From Mariprofundus ferrooxydans PV-1 (GTDB lineage Bacteria > Pseudomonadota > Zetaproteobacteria > Mariprofundales > Mariprofundaceae), in contig NZ_DS022295.1 in the NCBI RefSeq assembly GCF_000153765.1, positions 279,828-343,827 on the forward strand: a stretch of DNA of 64,000 nt, written 5' to 3'. Positions 6,635-18,029 of this stretch are shown piece by piece. Each line of letters opens with the position of its first letter. Position 1 is the first letter of the stretch. The notes under the pieces were generated by a model. It worked only from the letters and a program-made list of their open reading frames with translations. It was not told the DNA's origin and did not search any database. A program made the translations under genes and the position numbers.

Positions 6635-7726
6635 CTACGACTTGCCGAAGTGCATGGCAAAATCTTCCCTGTGGACAGCATGGGCCAATGCCTGTTCGTA
6701 ACTGACCAGATCATCTTCAACCAGTTGCCTGAGGTGCTGGTCAAAGCTTTGTGACCCGTAAAGGCTATGGCCCTCTTCCATGGCGCGTACAATATCACCC
6801 CAGTGATCCGGATCGAGAATATAGTGACGGATTACCGAGTTTCTGATCATGATTTCCAGTGCGACAATACGGCCTTTTCCCTGTTTCATCGGTAGCAGTT
6901 TTTGAACGATAATGGCACGCAGGTTTTCAGACAGGCGTTCGCGAATACCAGCCTGCTCATCATGTGGGAATGAGGACATGATGCGCTGCATGGTGCCGAT
7001 GGCTGTAGTCGCGTGAACGGTGGACATGACCAGGTGTCCCGTTTCAGCTGCCTGTAGTGCCAGTTGAATCTCTTCACGGCCGCGTACTTCACCTGCGACG
7101 ATAATATCCGGTGTTTCGCGTAGTGCGTCGCTCAACCCCTGCTTGTAACTGGCGACATCACTGCCCAGCTCACGCTGGCTGACGGTGCCACGATAGCTGT
7201 TGTTGTAACGAAATTCGACCGGGTCCTCCAGTGATACAGCATGCACAGGTCTGTGGCGGATCATGTGGTTAAGCATGGCTGCCATAGAGGTGGATTTTCC
7301 GGATCCGGCGGCGCCTGCCATCAGAATAAGTCCGTTGCGGTAGCCTGTAATCTCTTCGAATACCGGCGGCAAACGCAGGGCGGCGAAATCGGGAATATCA
7401 ACCGGAATCAGGCGCGCAACAATGCCGAAGTCGTTGTGGGTGCGCAGCACATGAATGCGGAAGTGAGCCGCTCCCGGCAGGGTGTAATGAAAATCCAGAT
7501 TCCTGATGGTTTCGATCTCTGTTTGCGTAGGCAGAGCGCGTACAAGGTGGCGAATCATCTCGATGGTTTTGTTGCGATCAGGGACGGTTACTTTGTCCGC
7601 CGGCACGGTGACAATGTCGCCATTGATGCGCATGCGCACCCGGTCACCTGTGCGTACAATCAGGTCCGAAGCGCCATTTTTTCCGGCAACGAGCAGCAGC
7701 TCATCAATCAGCGCCGGTTTTTCCAT
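6635..7726 (-). CDS. PilT-family retraction ATPase, third paralogue
   Basis: Hexameric secretion ATPase of the GspE/PilT superfamily, 363 residues. Walker A is GAAGSGKST (about residue 143), the Asp box SLEDPVEF, Walker B DIIVAGEVRG and the His box STVHATT, so it should hydrolyse ATP. It differs from canonical PilT in the Walker A lead-in (AGAAGSGKST rather than GPTGSGKST), and it begins with a PilT-like N-terminal domain (GASDLIVRTGDRVRMRINGD). Its ATG overlaps the pilU stop by one base (TGATG). Most species carry only PilT and PilU here, so the role of a third member (specialised retraction or surface sensing) is open. Confidence 0.88.
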   Translation of the reverse strand: MEKPALIDELLLVAGKNGASDLIVRTGDRVRMRINGDIVTVPADKVTVPDRNKTIEMIRHLVRALPTQTEIETIRNLDFHYTLPGAAHFRIHVLRTHNDFGIVARLIPVDIPDFAALRLPPVFEEITGYRNGLILMAGAAGSGKSTSMAAMLNHMIRHRPVHAVSLEDPVEFRYNNSYRGTVSQRELGSDVASYKQGLSDALRETPDIIVAGEVRGREEIQLALQAAETGHLVMSTVHATTAIGTMQRIMSSFPHDEQAGIRERLSENLRAIIVQKLLPMKQGKGRIVALEIMIRNSVIRHYILDPDHWGDIVRAMEEGHSLYGSQSFDQHLRQLVEDDLVSYEQALAHAVHREDFAMHFGKS

Positions 7727-8886
7727 CAGATGCGTAGTCCGGATGAGTCCTTGCCGCCGGTGAGCTGATCCAGGTCACTCTCTCCGCTACTCGAGTCTTT
7801 GAGGTCTACCATTTTGATCTGCAGGCGCAGATTGTTGACCGAATCGGCATGGCGAAGCGCCTCATCTTCGGTGATATACCCCTCCATCCACAGATTCAGC
7901 AGGGCCTGATCGAAGGTTTGCATGCCATAATTCTTGCCGGCTGCCATCGCTTCCTTGATCTCGCTGATGTCCCATTTTCCGATCAAATCGGCAATACGCG
8001 GTGTGTTTATCAGGATTTCGACTGCCGGCATACGTACATCATCGGGTGTTTTAGCCAGGCGCTGGGAGAGAATTGCCTTCATATTCATAGCCAGATTCAG
8101 GCATACCTGAGCGTGCATCTCCTCCGGGAAGAAGTTCATGACCCGTTCGAGTGCCTGATTGGCATTGTTCGCATGCAACGTTGCCATGCACAGATGGCCT
8201 GTTTCAGCGAACTCCAGTGCATGCTCCATGGTTTCACGATCCCTGATCTCGCCGATCAGAATCACATCAGGTGCCTGCCTGAGCGCATTTTTTAATGCAG
8301 CCTTATACTCCAGCGTGTCGGTACCGACTTCGCGCTGGGTAATGACGGATTTTTTATGCTCATGGACAAATTCGATCGGATCTTCGATCGAGATAATATG
8401 ACCGGGTTGATGCGAGTTGCGCCAGTCGATCATGGCAGCCAGAGAGGTGGATTTTCCGGAGCCGGTAGAACCGACCATCAGGACCAGCCCGCGTGATGCC
8501 ATGACGATATCCTTGAATATTTCGGGCAGGCCCAGCTGATCAATCGTCGGGACATCCGTTTTTACCTTACGAATGACCATACCGACATGGCTTCGCTGAC
8601 GGAAGATGTTAACCCGGAAACGCCCGATGTCCGGATAGGAGAGGGCGAGGTTCATTTCGTATTCAGCGGAAAATGCCGCCTTCTGTCGTTCCGTCATGGT
8701 CGAACTGGCCAGTCTTTCGCACTCGGCGGCGGTCAGCGGGGGTTGTTTCAATGTGAAAACGGAACCATTGATCCGGTAGGATGGGGCCATACCTGCTGTG
8801 ATATACAGGTCGGAAGCATCGCGCTTCTCCATCAATGCGAGTAACTGTTTGATCGATATGGGATTGGTCTGGCTGGTGGCACTCAT
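7726..8886 (-). CDS. pilU: Type IV pilus retraction ATPase PilU
   Basis: PilT-dependent accessory retraction motor at the inner-membrane pilus base. Walker A GSTGSGKST, Asp box SIEDPIEF, Walker B DVILIGEIRD and His box ATLHANNAN are intact. PilU-like features are the start MEKRDASDLYITAGMAPSYR and the C-terminal tail HADSVNNLRLQIKMVDL followed by a Ser/Asp-rich end. The start is ATG 8886: AAGGAG lies 8 bases upstream, whereas the alternative GTG at 8895 overlaps that Shine-Dalgarno itself. Product 386 residues. It lies between pilT and the third paralogue on one strand. Confidence 0.92.
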   Translation of the reverse strand: MSATSQTNPISIKQLLALMEKRDASDLYITAGMAPSYRINGSVFTLKQPPLTAAECERLASSTMTERQKAAFSAEYEMNLALSYPDIGRFRVNIFRQRSHVGMVIRKVKTDVPTIDQLGLPEIFKDIVMASRGLVLMVGSTGSGKSTSLAAMIDWRNSHQPGHIISIEDPIEFVHEHKKSVITQREVGTDTLEYKAALKNALRQAPDVILIGEIRDRETMEHALEFAETGHLCMATLHANNANQALERVMNFFPEEMHAQVCLNLAMNMKAILSQRLAKTPDDVRMPAVEILINTPRIADLIGKWDISEIKEAMAAGKNYGMQTFDQALLNLWMEGYITEDEALRHADSVNNLRLQIKMVDLKDSSSGESDLDQLTGGKDSSGLRI

Positions 8887-8931
8887 GCCCGGCACTCCTT
8901 AAATTGTTGAGATAGGCTGATGATCAATTTT

Positions 8932-9984
8932 TCAGGCCATGCCACCACCGAACAACTTCTTGTTATTGGCTTTTTCCAGTGCGGCCTGGAGCGTTATTTT
9001 ACGCGACTTCACCAGCAATTGCAGGTGTGAATCCAGCGTTTGCATGCCCTCACGCATACCGGTCTGCATGACTGAAACCATCTGGGCGATCTTGTTTTCA
9101 CGGATCAGGTTGCGAATGGCCGGCGTGCCCAGCATGATCTCAAAGGCGGCAACACGGCCGGTTTCATCGGCAGTTTTGATCAGCGATTGCGAAATGACCG
9201 CACGCAGTGATTCGGAAAGCATCGAGCGCACCATCTCTTTTTCAGCAGCAGGAAATACATCGATAATACGGTCAATGGTTTTGGGGGCCGATGAGGTATG
9301 CAATGTTCCGAATACCATATGACCGGTCTCTGCTGCAGTCAGTGCCAGACGTATTGTTTCCAGGTCGCGTAATTCGCCGACCAGAATGACGTCTGGATCC
9401 TCACGCAGAGCACTGCGCAGGGCATTGGCGAAGGAGTGGGTGTGCGGTCCCAACTCACGCTGGGAAATCAGCGAATTTTTTGACTGGTGAACGAACTCGA
9501 TCGGATCTTCGATGGTCAGAATATGACCGCGCTCACTCTCATTGCGGTGATTGACCATGGCTGCCAGCGTGGTCGATTTACCTGAGCCGGTGGGGCCGGT
9601 GACCAGGCAGATGCCGCGTGGTGTCATGGCGATATCGCGAAATATCTGGGGGCTGTTTAGCTGGTCGAGGGTTAGAACTTCGGTGGGAATAACGCGGAAT
9701 ACCGCGCCCATACCGCGACGCTGTTCAAAGGCATTGACACGGAAGCGGGCAATATCACCGAGCGCGAAGGAAAAATCGATTTCCATGTGTTCTTCAAAAT
9801 GCTTTCGCTGTCCATCGTTCATGATGTCATAAACCATCGCCTGCACTTCACGGTGGTCGATTGATGGCATTTTGATGCGAGTCATATCGCCGTTGATACG
9901 GATCATCGGCGGCTCTCCGGACGACAGGTGCAGATCCGATGCCTTGTTTTTGACGGTAAATGCAAGCAGTTCCGATACTTCCAT
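8932..9984 (-). CDS. pilT: Type IV pilus retraction ATPase PilT
   Basis: Main retraction motor of type IV pili, 350 residues, as in the family. Signatures: N-terminal KASDLHLSSGEPPMIRINGD, Walker A GPTGSGKSTT, Asp box TIEDPIEFVHQ, Walker B DVILVGELRDLETIRL, the AIRNLIRE motif near the C-terminus, and His box GTLHTSSA. GGGGAG sits 6 bases before ATG 9984. It is first of three ATPase genes in the order pilT-pilU-pilT-like. No pilin or pilus assembly genes are in the window. Confidence 0.96.
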   Translation of the reverse strand: MEVSELLAFTVKNKASDLHLSSGEPPMIRINGDMTRIKMPSIDHREVQAMVYDIMNDGQRKHFEEHMEIDFSFALGDIARFRVNAFEQRRGMGAVFRVIPTEVLTLDQLNSPQIFRDIAMTPRGICLVTGPTGSGKSTTLAAMVNHRNESERGHILTIEDPIEFVHQSKNSLISQRELGPHTHSFANALRSALREDPDVILVGELRDLETIRLALTAAETGHMVFGTLHTSSAPKTIDRIIDVFPAAEKEMVRSMLSESLRAVISQSLIKTADETGRVAAFEIMLGTPAIRNLIRENKIAQMVSVMQTGMREGMQTLDSHLQLLVKSRKITLQAALEKANNKKLFGGGMA

Positions 9985-12316: not shown

Positions 12317-12637
12317 TCAGGCGAGCAGGTCTATTTTTGTAGTTTCCGGTTTTTGTGTCTGCGGATTGACAGGGCGCGCCTGTTCAACAGCCTCATTATC
12401 AGCCACTTTTTCAGTCGCCTCTTTTTCAGCGGCGATATGCAGTTCGACCGGCTGACTATTCTGTGTCGGACTGTTATGCAGCTGAGCACCGGCCAGTTGT
12501 CTGGACTGGGGAGATAGTTGCACGGTATCCGTGGCTTTTCTCGACTGCTCTGACTGGCTGACCTGATTTTGCTGTGACTGATTGAGATTGCCGAAATCGA
12601 CAACGGCAGCAGGTGTGGAAGCAGGTAAAATAATCAT
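12317..12637 (-). CDS. Uncharacterised flagellar-regulon protein, 106 residues
   Basis: Gln/Ser-rich, probably disordered small protein: MIILPASTPAAVVDFG, then NLNQSQQNQVSQSEQ, DTVQLSPQSRQLAG and an acidic Pro/Thr tail ending KIDLLA. AGGAG lies 7 bases before ATG 12637; longer frames start without one. It diverges from flagellin and has a near-consensus sigma-28 promoter of its own (12742-12768), so it should be expressed late with the filament. The TVQLSPQ segment recalls small motility-associated proteins and anti-sigma-28-like proteins, but I cannot place it in a family. Confidence 0.7.
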   Translation of the reverse strand: MIILPASTPAAVVDFGNLNQSQQNQVSQSEQSRKATDTVQLSPQSRQLAGAQLHNSPTQNSQPVELHIAAEKEATEKVADNEAVEQARPVNPQTQKPETTKIDLLA

Positions 12638-12741
12638 GGTTTTCTCCTGTAAAATCAGATCCCGTCTGACATCCTGCCAATGGGAGCTGCATCTTGTGCG
12701 GAGGAGTCCATGTACCACCGTTTATACGCTTACGCTTGATT

Positions 12742-12768
12742 ATATCGGACAGGTTGAAGTCGACTTTA
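12742..12768 (-). promoter_or_regulatory. Sigma-28 (FliA) promoter of the 12317-12637 gene
   Basis: Read on the minus strand: TAAAGTCG, an 11-base spacer, then TCCGATAT, close to the sigma-28 consensus TAAA(G)-N11-GCCGATAA. The predicted start is near 12735, leaving a leader of about 100 bases before ATG 12637. Confidence 0.8.
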
Positions 12769-13006: not shown

Positions 13007-13033
13007 TAAAGTCCGGGTTTTTCTCTCCGATAC
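13007..13033 (+). promoter_or_regulatory. Sigma-28 (FliA) promoter of flagellin
   Basis: TAAAGTCC (13007-13014), an 11-base spacer, then TCCGATAC (13026-13033). It shares element form and exact spacing with the divergent promoter at 12742-12768. Transcription should begin near 13040, about 95 bases before the flagellin ATG. Between the two promoters (12769-13006) I see no gene. Confidence 0.85.
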
Positions 13034-13043
13034 ACTTAAACAC

Positions 13044-13107
13044 GAAGGCTGAGGAACATCCTTCAAGGGGAAAATCCCCACCGTGACAGGGCATGATGTC
13101 GTTCACG
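13044..13107 (+). promoter_or_regulatory. Structured flagellin leader with GGA-in-loop hairpins
   Basis: The flagellin leader can fold into three small hairpins. In the first, GAAGG (13044-13048) pairs with CCTTC (13060-13064) around a loop carrying AGGAA. In the second, GGGGA (13067-13071) pairs with TCCCC (13075-13079). In the third, CGTGA (13082) pairs with TCACG (13103). A GGA in a hairpin loop plus the AAGGAGA ribosome-binding site is the arrangement CsrA uses to repress flagellin in other bacteria. CsrA binding here is inference. Confidence 0.4.
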
Positions 13108-13133
13108 TTTAACACAAACTAAGGAGAGAACAA

Positions 13134-14252
13134 ATGCTATCAGTCCAAACCAATAACGCGGCAATGACCGCCCTGAAAAACCTCAACACCAACAGCATGG
13201 CACAGGATCAGTCGTTGAACCGTCTGTCATCCGGCTTCCGCATCAACAGTGCGGCGGATGACTCATCCGGTTTTGCGATCTCATCCAAGCTGGATGCGCA
13301 GGCTGGTCGTTTGAAAGCTGCCAGTCAAAATGCAACTCAGGCAACTGCCATGGTAAAGATGGCAGATGCAGGTGTGAACGAAATCCAGAATATGTTTAAT
13401 CGTATCCTGACTCTGGCTACCCAGGCCTCCTCTGGAAACAATGCAGGGGAACTGGCCAAGTTGGATGCAGAGCGCATCAAGCTGGAAACACAGATCGACA
13501 ATATTGCTAACAGCACCAATTACAATGGTGTCAGTTTGCTCAATGGTACTTCCGGCTCCTCGGCAACCCTGGCCGCCCCTGTCGCTGGTATAAGCGCTAC
13601 AGTGCAGGCCACAGGTGCAGCTAGCGGTGCAGTCACCCTTAGCACGCTGACCAATGCCGGTGGTGGCATTGATATCACCCTGACCAATGCTGCTGGTACT
13701 GCCCAGACGGTGAACGTTACCGTACCTGCTGCCGGTACCACGTCCTCAGTTGCATTCAATGATATCGGTCTGACACTCTCGGTTGACAGTAACCTGGTGA
13801 CTGGTGGCGCTGGCACAGTCAATGTTACAGCCGGTGCTTCATCCAGCTTCCAGGTGGGTGCCGACAATGCTGCTACGAACCGTGTCAGTATTAATCTGAG
13901 TAACAGTTATACCACGGCCAGCCTGTTTACCGGATACGGTGGTGTGGCAACTGCTGGCCTGACCACTAATACTGATGCACAGAACTATATCGACAAGGCT
14001 AGCTTTGCGTTGGATAAGCTGATTACTCAACGTGCCGACCTTGGTGCTACCCAGAACCAGTTGGGCTTCGTACAGGCTAATCTGGCTACCAGTATCGAGC
14101 AGACGACTGCTTCAGTATCAGCTATCAAGGATGCCGATATGGCTGCTGAAATGGCTAACTTCACCAAGAACAAGATCTTGACTCAGGCTGGTACGTCCAT
14201 GTTGGCACAGGCCAACCAGGCTTCCCAGAACGTTCTGACACTGTTCAGATAA
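13134..14252 (+). CDS. fliC: Flagellin, filament subunit
   Basis: Exported structural protein of 372 residues. The N-terminal D0/D1 helices are textbook (NLNTNSMAQDQSLNRLSSGF, INSAADDSSGFAISSKL), and so is the C-terminal half (KDADMAAEMANFTKNKILTQ, ending NVLTLFR). The central third (about 145-285) is a Ala/Gly/Thr/Val-rich variable domain exposed on the filament surface. AAGGAG precedes ATG 13134 by 8 bases. It is driven by the sigma-28 promoter at 13007 and followed by a strong hairpin, then flaG and fliD. Confidence 0.97.
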   Translation: MLSVQTNNAAMTALKNLNTNSMAQDQSLNRLSSGFRINSAADDSSGFAISSKLDAQAGRLKAASQNATQATAMVKMADAGVNEIQNMFNRILTLATQASSGNNAGELAKLDAERIKLETQIDNIANSTNYNGVSLLNGTSGSSATLAAPVAGISATVQATGAASGAVTLSTLTNAGGGIDITLTNAAGTAQTVNVTVPAAGTTSSVAFNDIGLTLSVDSNLVTGGAGTVNVTAGASSSFQVGADNAATNRVSINLSNSYTTASLFTGYGGVATAGLTTNTDAQNYIDKASFALDKLITQRADLGATQNQLGFVQANLATSIEQTTASVSAIKDADMAAEMANFTKNKILTQAGTSMLAQANQASQNVLTLFR

Positions 14253-17280: not shown

Positions 17281-17688
17281 ATGACACGCTATCAGGCATA
17301 TCAGGGAAATCAGGTAGAAGGGGCAGGGCCGCTTGGATTGGTGCTGCTGACCTATGAGGCACTGTTTAAATCACTGGGCAGAACGAGAATGGCGATATTG
17401 GCTGCGGATATGTCTGCTGAAGCCACTCATACAAGCAGAGCGGTGGAGGCACTGATCGAATTGAACAGTAGTCTGAACATGGAAGCCGGTGGTGATATTG
17501 CCCAGAGCCTGGCCAGTCTGTATATATATATGATGAATCGTTTGTCAAACGGGCTGTGCTCAGCTTCAACCGAGCATGTGGATGAAGTGATACGTCTGGT
17601 GCAGGAGCTGCGTGAGGGTTGGATGCAGCTGTCTGCTCAGCAGCAAGCAGGACAGCAGCGCTCACACCTGAAGGTTGCCGTTGGATGA
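17281..17688 (+). CDS. fliS: Flagellin export chaperone FliS
   Basis: Cytosolic chaperone that binds the C-terminus of flagellin before export. 135 residues, matching the family: start MTRYQAYQGNQVEGAGPLGL, LVLLTYEALFKSLGRTRMAI, then a helical bundle with SLYIYMMNRLSNG. GGAGG is 6 bases upstream of ATG 17281. It overlaps fliT by 4 bases. Confidence 0.93.
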   Translation: MTRYQAYQGNQVEGAGPLGLVLLTYEALFKSLGRTRMAILAADMSAEATHTSRAVEALIELNSSLNMEAGGDIAQSLASLYIYMMNRLSNGLCSASTEHVDEVIRLVQELREGWMQLSAQQQAGQQRSHLKVAVG

Positions 17689-18029
17689 ATGCGTCCGATG
17701 ATCAGCTCGCAGTGACGGATGCAACGCAGTTGCTTGCTCAATGCCGTACCCGGCTGGATGATCTGAACAGGGCGGTGAAGCGGCAACAGTGGCAGGAGGC
17801 GGCTGTTATTGCAGCTGATTATGCCGCCATGCTGGCCATGTTGGGTGAGATCGGAACGCCGGCATCCGTGGCGGAAGAAATAGTACAGCTGGATATACGG
17901 CATAGGCGGTGTATGCGCACGCTCTCCCGCCAGATGGCGGCAGTGACTGAGGATATCGCCAGTCTGGAAGCCGGAGAGAAGGCGGCCCGGCGTAGCAGGG
18001 ACTTGGTTACAACGATCTACCATCAGTAA
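17685..18029 (+). CDS. fliT: FliT-like flagellar chaperone
   Basis: Helical protein of 114 residues starting at ATG 17685, which overlaps the fliS stop (ATGA). A longer frame opening at 17619 inside fliS is rejected because of that overlap. The position after fliS, the size and the all-helical, charged pattern (RTRLDDLNRAVKRQQWQEAA) fit FliT, the chaperone of FliD. Sequence identity to the family is weak, so the name rests mainly on context. Its last 23 bases overlap the 3' end of the convergent algC gene. Confidence 0.65.
   Translation: MNASDDQLAVTDATQLLAQCRTRLDDLNRAVKRQQWQEAAVIAADYAAMLAMLGEIGTPASVAEEIVQLDIRHRRCMRTLSRQMAAVTEDIASLEAGEKAARRSRDLVTTIYHQ

Follow-up and report, generated by a model that had tools for sequence, protein, structure and literature searches.

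In Bacillus (hag) and Campylobacter (flaA), flagellin is repressed by CsrA and released by FliW, which is an established regulatory circuit (PMC7652899, PMC4894983). The CsrA consensus obtained by SELEX is RUACARGGAUGU, in which ACA and GGA are 100% conserved and GGA lies in a hairpin loop (PMC7652899). CsrA can also act positively, i.e., in E. coli it activates ymdA by undoing a structure that sequesters the Shine-Dalgarno sequence (PMC7492729). Here we describe a small gene on the minus strand (12317..12637) next to flagellin in Mariprofundus ferrooxydans PV-1, very probably a late gene of the flagellar hierarchy that is subject to additional regulation. All positions refer to the window, meaning the whole stretch of 64,000 nucleotides that was analysed, unless a contig is given.

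The earlier note had described a near-perfect minus-strand sigma-28 promoter resembling that of flagellin, and its exact letters are present: TAAAGTCG-ACTTCAACCTG-TCCGATAT at minus strand 12768-12742 for the small gene, and TAAAGTCC-N11-TCCGATAC at 13007-13033 for flagellin. The strict pattern TAAAGT-N14-CCGATA has exactly two perfect matches in the window, the small-gene promoter (12743..12768, minus strand) and the divergent flagellin promoter (13007..13032, plus strand), and four in the whole 3.0 Mb genome, versus none for the reversed pattern. The two remaining sites belong to a second small gene (C4:1387583) and to a place amid unrelated ORFs (C2:18094). When one mismatch was allowed, 82 sites were counted versus 56 in the reversed control, and since the excess shrinks in this looser pattern, the strict one is the informative form. 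The small-gene promoter is far above chance, with TAAAGT and CGATA forming invariant columns in 18/18 orthologues and the bases between them drifting in the alignment of the upstream regions. A TAAA-type -35 element and a CCGATA-type -10 element are thus kept at the correct spacing across the orthologues, and FliA itself is encoded at C4:73173-73847 (253.9 bits, cut-off 189.6).

Orthologues were found by protein and profile searches in 18 of the 23 Mariprofundus genomes, including the named records M. erugo P3, M. micogutta ET2 and strains EBB-1 and KV, as well as several MAGs. No convincing orthologue was found outside the genus, where the sister-genus matches are weak (E 0.002-0.4) and those that look related have only the central motif of the protein in common, and viral contigs held no relative; as judged from these searches, the gene is specific to Mariprofundus. 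It is absent from G003 and G017, two genomes in which FliA, FlgM and FliW are missing as well. Three flagellated congeners (G007, G011, G022) are without it too, so it is not essential for the flagellum. FliA, FlgM and FliW are present in most flagellated congeners; G018, whose assembly is 78% complete, has the small gene and no FliA match above the cut-off. In most of the twelve larger regions, mnmA adjoins the small gene, and in several of them flagellin is next to it or a few genes off. The gene lies between uvrB-like and oadA-like genes in G008, G010, G012 and G014, and adjoins gltX-like and ychF-like genes in G021, these names being read from ORF starts and not from a family search. Promoter, leader and ORF stay together in every case, including the five species in which they lie away from flagellin and mnmA, and because they travel as a unit to other neighbourhoods, adjacency to flagellin is not the cause. 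The placement of the gene in the late flagellar regulon, proposed earlier, is well supported since the promoter is conserved in 18 orthologues and persists where the gene lies away from flagellin, and since neither of the two congeners without FliA, FlgM and FliW has the gene; its transcription in vivo would be expected to depend on FliA.

The 106-residue Gln-rich ORF with a good ribosome-binding site, which had been placed about 100 bases downstream of the promoter, is real. A distance of about 104 nt separates its ATG at 12637 from the -10 element, AGGAG (12644..12648, minus strand) precedes the ATG by 6 nt, and the product contains about 15 Gln among its 106 aa. A longer in-frame GTG start at 12718, taken from the ORF list, is not conserved in relatives; therefore, the ATG at 12637 is the right start. 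The dN/dS of about 0.10-0.19, taken from pairs with measurable dS and a non-identical protein, indicates strong purifying selection. Conservation is seen at the N-terminus (MII-P--TP), in the centre (DTVqlSaeARelA), which the G014 orthologue carries twice, and at the C-terminus (PEtTKIDvvA, with its KIDvvA end). The protein matched no database family or known domain in Pfam and family searches, a PDB sequence search for distant homologues gave nothing credible (best E 0.47), and the predicted structure is disordered, at low confidence (mean pLDDT 54.1, pTM 0.17). A flagellar export chaperone of the FliS/FliT/FlgN type is not supported, as there is no family match and no helical-bundle fold in the disordered, low-confidence model (mean pLDDT 54), and the earlier description of the protein as chaperone-like likewise found no support. 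Secretion is plausible for a product that is small, disordered and late-expressed, and most likely the protein would serve the late flagellum as an accessory factor that is either exported or short-lived.

The promoter and ORF singled out in the earlier note thus hold, but a conserved structured leader between the two was overlooked. The 5' leader of about 100 nt (12638..12736, minus strand, with the transcription start placed by the -10 element) contains an RNA element of two predicted hairpins (12664..12721, minus strand), which our covariance model R1 recovers at 64.2 bits (E 3.7e-15) in the window. R1 matches the same 18 Mariprofundus genomes at 45-73.5 bits, with one strong match per genome, and nothing else above 22.3 bits among 78 genomes of the class; because 17 of the 18 matches were used in building it, the eighteenth being nearly identical to one of them, its information lies in the gap below the 18. 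Hairpin 1 (12699..12720, minus strand), CGGUGG-UACAUGGACU-CCUCCG, has an ACAnGGA loop of the CsrA-site type and a 3' arm complementary to the Shine-Dalgarno sequence. It appears in the alignment of the upstream regions as an invariant GG-GG-ACA-GGA-U-CC-CC block, and the 20-nt form GGyGGyACAnGGAyUCCyCC has a single exact match in each of 18 genomes, always at the small gene, with just two extra places (in G002 and G009) when one mismatch is allowed. Across 84,980 species the hairpin 1 pattern gave 41 stretches, and those outside Mariprofundus and the Zetaproteobacteria fall in unrelated taxa in about the number expected by chance, which we estimate at about 30. The outer pair of hairpin 1 is compensatory (C-G in 11, A-U in 6); it is the only pair that covaries, and the other four are invariant and neither support nor contradict the fold. 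Hairpin 2 (12665..12681, minus strand), which is formed around GGCAGGAUGUC with the core GGCAkGAwGUC at 12668-12678, a GGA/UGA triloop and a covarying stem, is better supported by covariation than hairpin 1, with 91.7% of cells paired and 23 double-change cells versus 11.2 in shuffles (0/500), a comparison that can be inflated by shared ancestry; slid versions of the hairpin are far worse. A leader uORF starting at the AUG of hairpin 1 was rejected, as it is not conserved and other species have A or C in place of the U of that AUG. At gathering score Rfam gave no match at the locus and, elsewhere in the window, only tRNA and the Zeta-pan RNA (RF03111; 47787-47838, minus strand, 70.1 bits). A single-copy 57-nt RNA element without an Rfam family is a conserved leader worth describing.

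In minimum-energy folds, the 3' arm of hairpin 1 usually pairs with the Shine-Dalgarno sequence and often with the start codon too, the predicted probability of this pairing being 0.43-0.99 in 18/18 leaders. In 18/18 leaders the Shine-Dalgarno sequence is more closed than in the average shuffle, which is marginal per species (fractions 0.015-0.47), few species being individually clearly below their own shuffles; in this run the constant nine-base ATGATTATT was appended to all leaders except that of G002, whereas some species have slightly different coding starts. No signal of species-by-species co-adaptation between the arm and the ribosome-binding site was seen (own -13.79 vs swapped -13.78 kcal/mol), and CCUCC would pair with any Shine-Dalgarno sequence. 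GGA and its flanking complementary arms are present in 18/18, but in 17/18 the minimum fold is predicted to be one other than hairpin 1. For most species the unbound hairpin has near-zero probability, and forming it costs between 0 and about 10 kcal/mol more than the minimum fold, a price that a protein binding the loop tightly could pay.

CsrA is encoded in 23/23 genomes, most flagellated ones having a second copy close to fliW. In genome G000 the gene order by ORF reading is flgM, likely flgN, flgK, flgL, csrA and fliW. This flagellar cluster (C3:1071000-1079000, L181) includes flgM, flgK, flgL and an 85-aa CsrA (C3:1076533) with an extended C-terminus, whose gene is overlapped at its end by the fliW ORF. 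Set against the CsrA consensus, hairpin 1 has an invariant ACA and GGA, a variable letter between them and an unmatched closing GU, and from its sequence it looks like a switch that CsrA could read.

The leader of flagellin (FliC; 13134..14252, plus strand; Pfam PF00669/PF00700) occupies 13033..13133 on the plus strand and is conserved as well: the stretch ACA-GGCA-GA-GUCGUU is invariant, and most species have GAGGAAC. It has GGCAkGAwGUC in common with the small-gene leader, here as GGCAuGAuGUC at 13090-13100. Since R1 finds only a short and weak match in the flagellin leader (8.3 bits), the resemblance is a lead and not a case of homology. A wider GGCAkGAwGUC regulon was considered and rejected, as among 14 places in the genome the setting of promoter, leader and Shine-Dalgarno sequence occurs only in the two flagellar leaders, and the others are by eye coding or scattered. 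Upstream of the flagellin gene of G022 (L144), the GGCATGATGTCG element occurs twice, with one copy upstream of the sigma-28 promoter. Elsewhere in the window, an ORF that follows and overlaps FliS takes the place of FliT (17619-18029, plus strand) and has only a sub-threshold DUF2153 match, and three consecutive PilT/PilU-like ATPase ORFs lie at 6635-9984 on the minus strand.

Taken together, we lean slightly towards a sigma-28-dependent late gene whose leader would work as a translational switch set by CsrA. The small gene would be monocistronic and transcribed by the FliA (sigma-28) polymerase. In the off state, the conserved CCUCC arm would pair with the gene's own Shine-Dalgarno sequence and start codon and prevent translation, while in the on state the same arm would close hairpin 1, show ACAnGGA to CsrA and free the Shine-Dalgarno sequence. 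CsrA, antagonised by FliW, which would in turn be bound by unexported flagellin as in the known systems, could set translation of the small gene in step with filament export. Activation by CsrA is narrowly favoured over repression. If it applies, flagellin and the small protein would be made reciprocally, and we know of no such reciprocal output of the flagellin checkpoint elsewhere. The fullest version of this idea, a genus-specific riboregulatory device in which the hairpin of a sigma-28 mRNA would both bind CsrA and supply the anti-Shine-Dalgarno arm, with CsrA switching the small protein on just as it switches flagellin off, is speculative and we consider it doubtful.

The strongest alternative is that the leader of the sigma-28 late gene is a CsrA repression site only, where CsrA bound to the hairpin 1 loop and to the GGA of the Shine-Dalgarno sequence would block the ribosome. 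This is unlikely, yet a realistic prospect: GGA is found in both places and in the flagellin leader too, and Bacillus hag and Campylobacter flaA are well-established precedents (PMC7652899, PMC4894983), whereas the distance between the two GGAs varies widely, from about 60 to 100 nt or more, and repression has no need of a conserved anti-Shine-Dalgarno arm and GGyGG. We find it rather unlikely that the leader is read by a factor other than CsrA (temperature, an sRNA or another RNA-binding protein) and that the GGA loop is coincidental. The divergent closing GU, the UGA/GGA triloop of hairpin 2 without a known reader and the lack of an Rfam match at the locus would fit such a factor, but ACA and GGA are invariant, whereas the positions that CsrA reads loosely vary. 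It is improbable that the transcript acts mainly in trans, with the sigma-28-made leader soaking up CsrA and the coding function being secondary; although the flaA mRNA of Campylobacter is a CsrA target that titrates CsrA (PMC4894983) and no part of the locus is more conserved than the hairpin 1 block, purifying selection on the ORF is strong and each leader offers one strong CsrA-type loop only. That the gene is an orphan ORF that merely hitch-hikes beside flagellin, its promoter resemblance being inconsequential, agrees with a small protein without a known domain but is hardly credible, being already contradicted by a promoter that is conserved in 18/18, by the joint relocation of promoter, leader and ORF, and by a dN/dS of about 0.1.

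With the CsrA-set switch that we prefer, the flagellin-FliW-CsrA circuit would gain a second target that can be tested, and this beyond the organisms in which it is usually studied. The class concerned, the Zetaproteobacteria, is of interest for how its members change between swimming and growth as stalks or mats, and little genetics is available for it.

One of the closest likenesses is to the second small sigma-28 gene of G000 and its sister-genus relatives, which have a sigma-28 promoter, a short protein and the motif D-x-V-x-I/L-S-x-x-A-R (hhalign probability 43% over 23 residues between the two products); however, its N- and C-termini are different and it has no hairpin 1 leader. This gene has its strict promoter at C4:1387583-1387608 (locus L180, 3584-3915), encodes an 85-aa protein (MAIISAQPVDGL...) and lies beside response-regulator-like ORFs, and the similar proteins of the sister genus (L188, L190) have sigma-28-like promoters. 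In G012 (L198, C28:47576-47773), there is a second protein whose centre is DTISISAEAQKLA and whose short C-terminus is similar, with no evident sigma-28 promoter. The anti-sigma-28 factor FlgM is likewise small and late and has a DSVqvs-like stretch, but our protein lacks the sigma-28-binding C-terminus; its identity as FlgM was rejected, as it has no PF04316 match, the profile comparison by hhalign gave a probability of 0.6%, and the true FlgM is a separate gene at C3:1073283. The Fed proteins of Campylobacter, likened here by description and not by sequence, are also sigma-28-dependent and not parts of the filament (PMC5223770), whereas the host here is a free-living iron oxidiser. The E. 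coli ymdA leader has in common with ours the Shine-Dalgarno sequestration, predicted here and shown by experiment for ymdA, together with CsrA-type leader sites, but the sequence and the gene are unrelated and ymdA is non-flagellar. The CsrA-FliW-flagellin circuit of Bacillus hag and Campylobacter flaA combines, as does this locus, a sigma-28-type late gene, a GGA-bearing leader hairpin (here a predicted one) and csrA with fliW in the flagellar cluster, but in Mariprofundus the controlled gene would encode a small disordered protein instead of flagellin, and the anti-Shine-Dalgarno arm is built into the hairpin that carries the predicted CsrA site.
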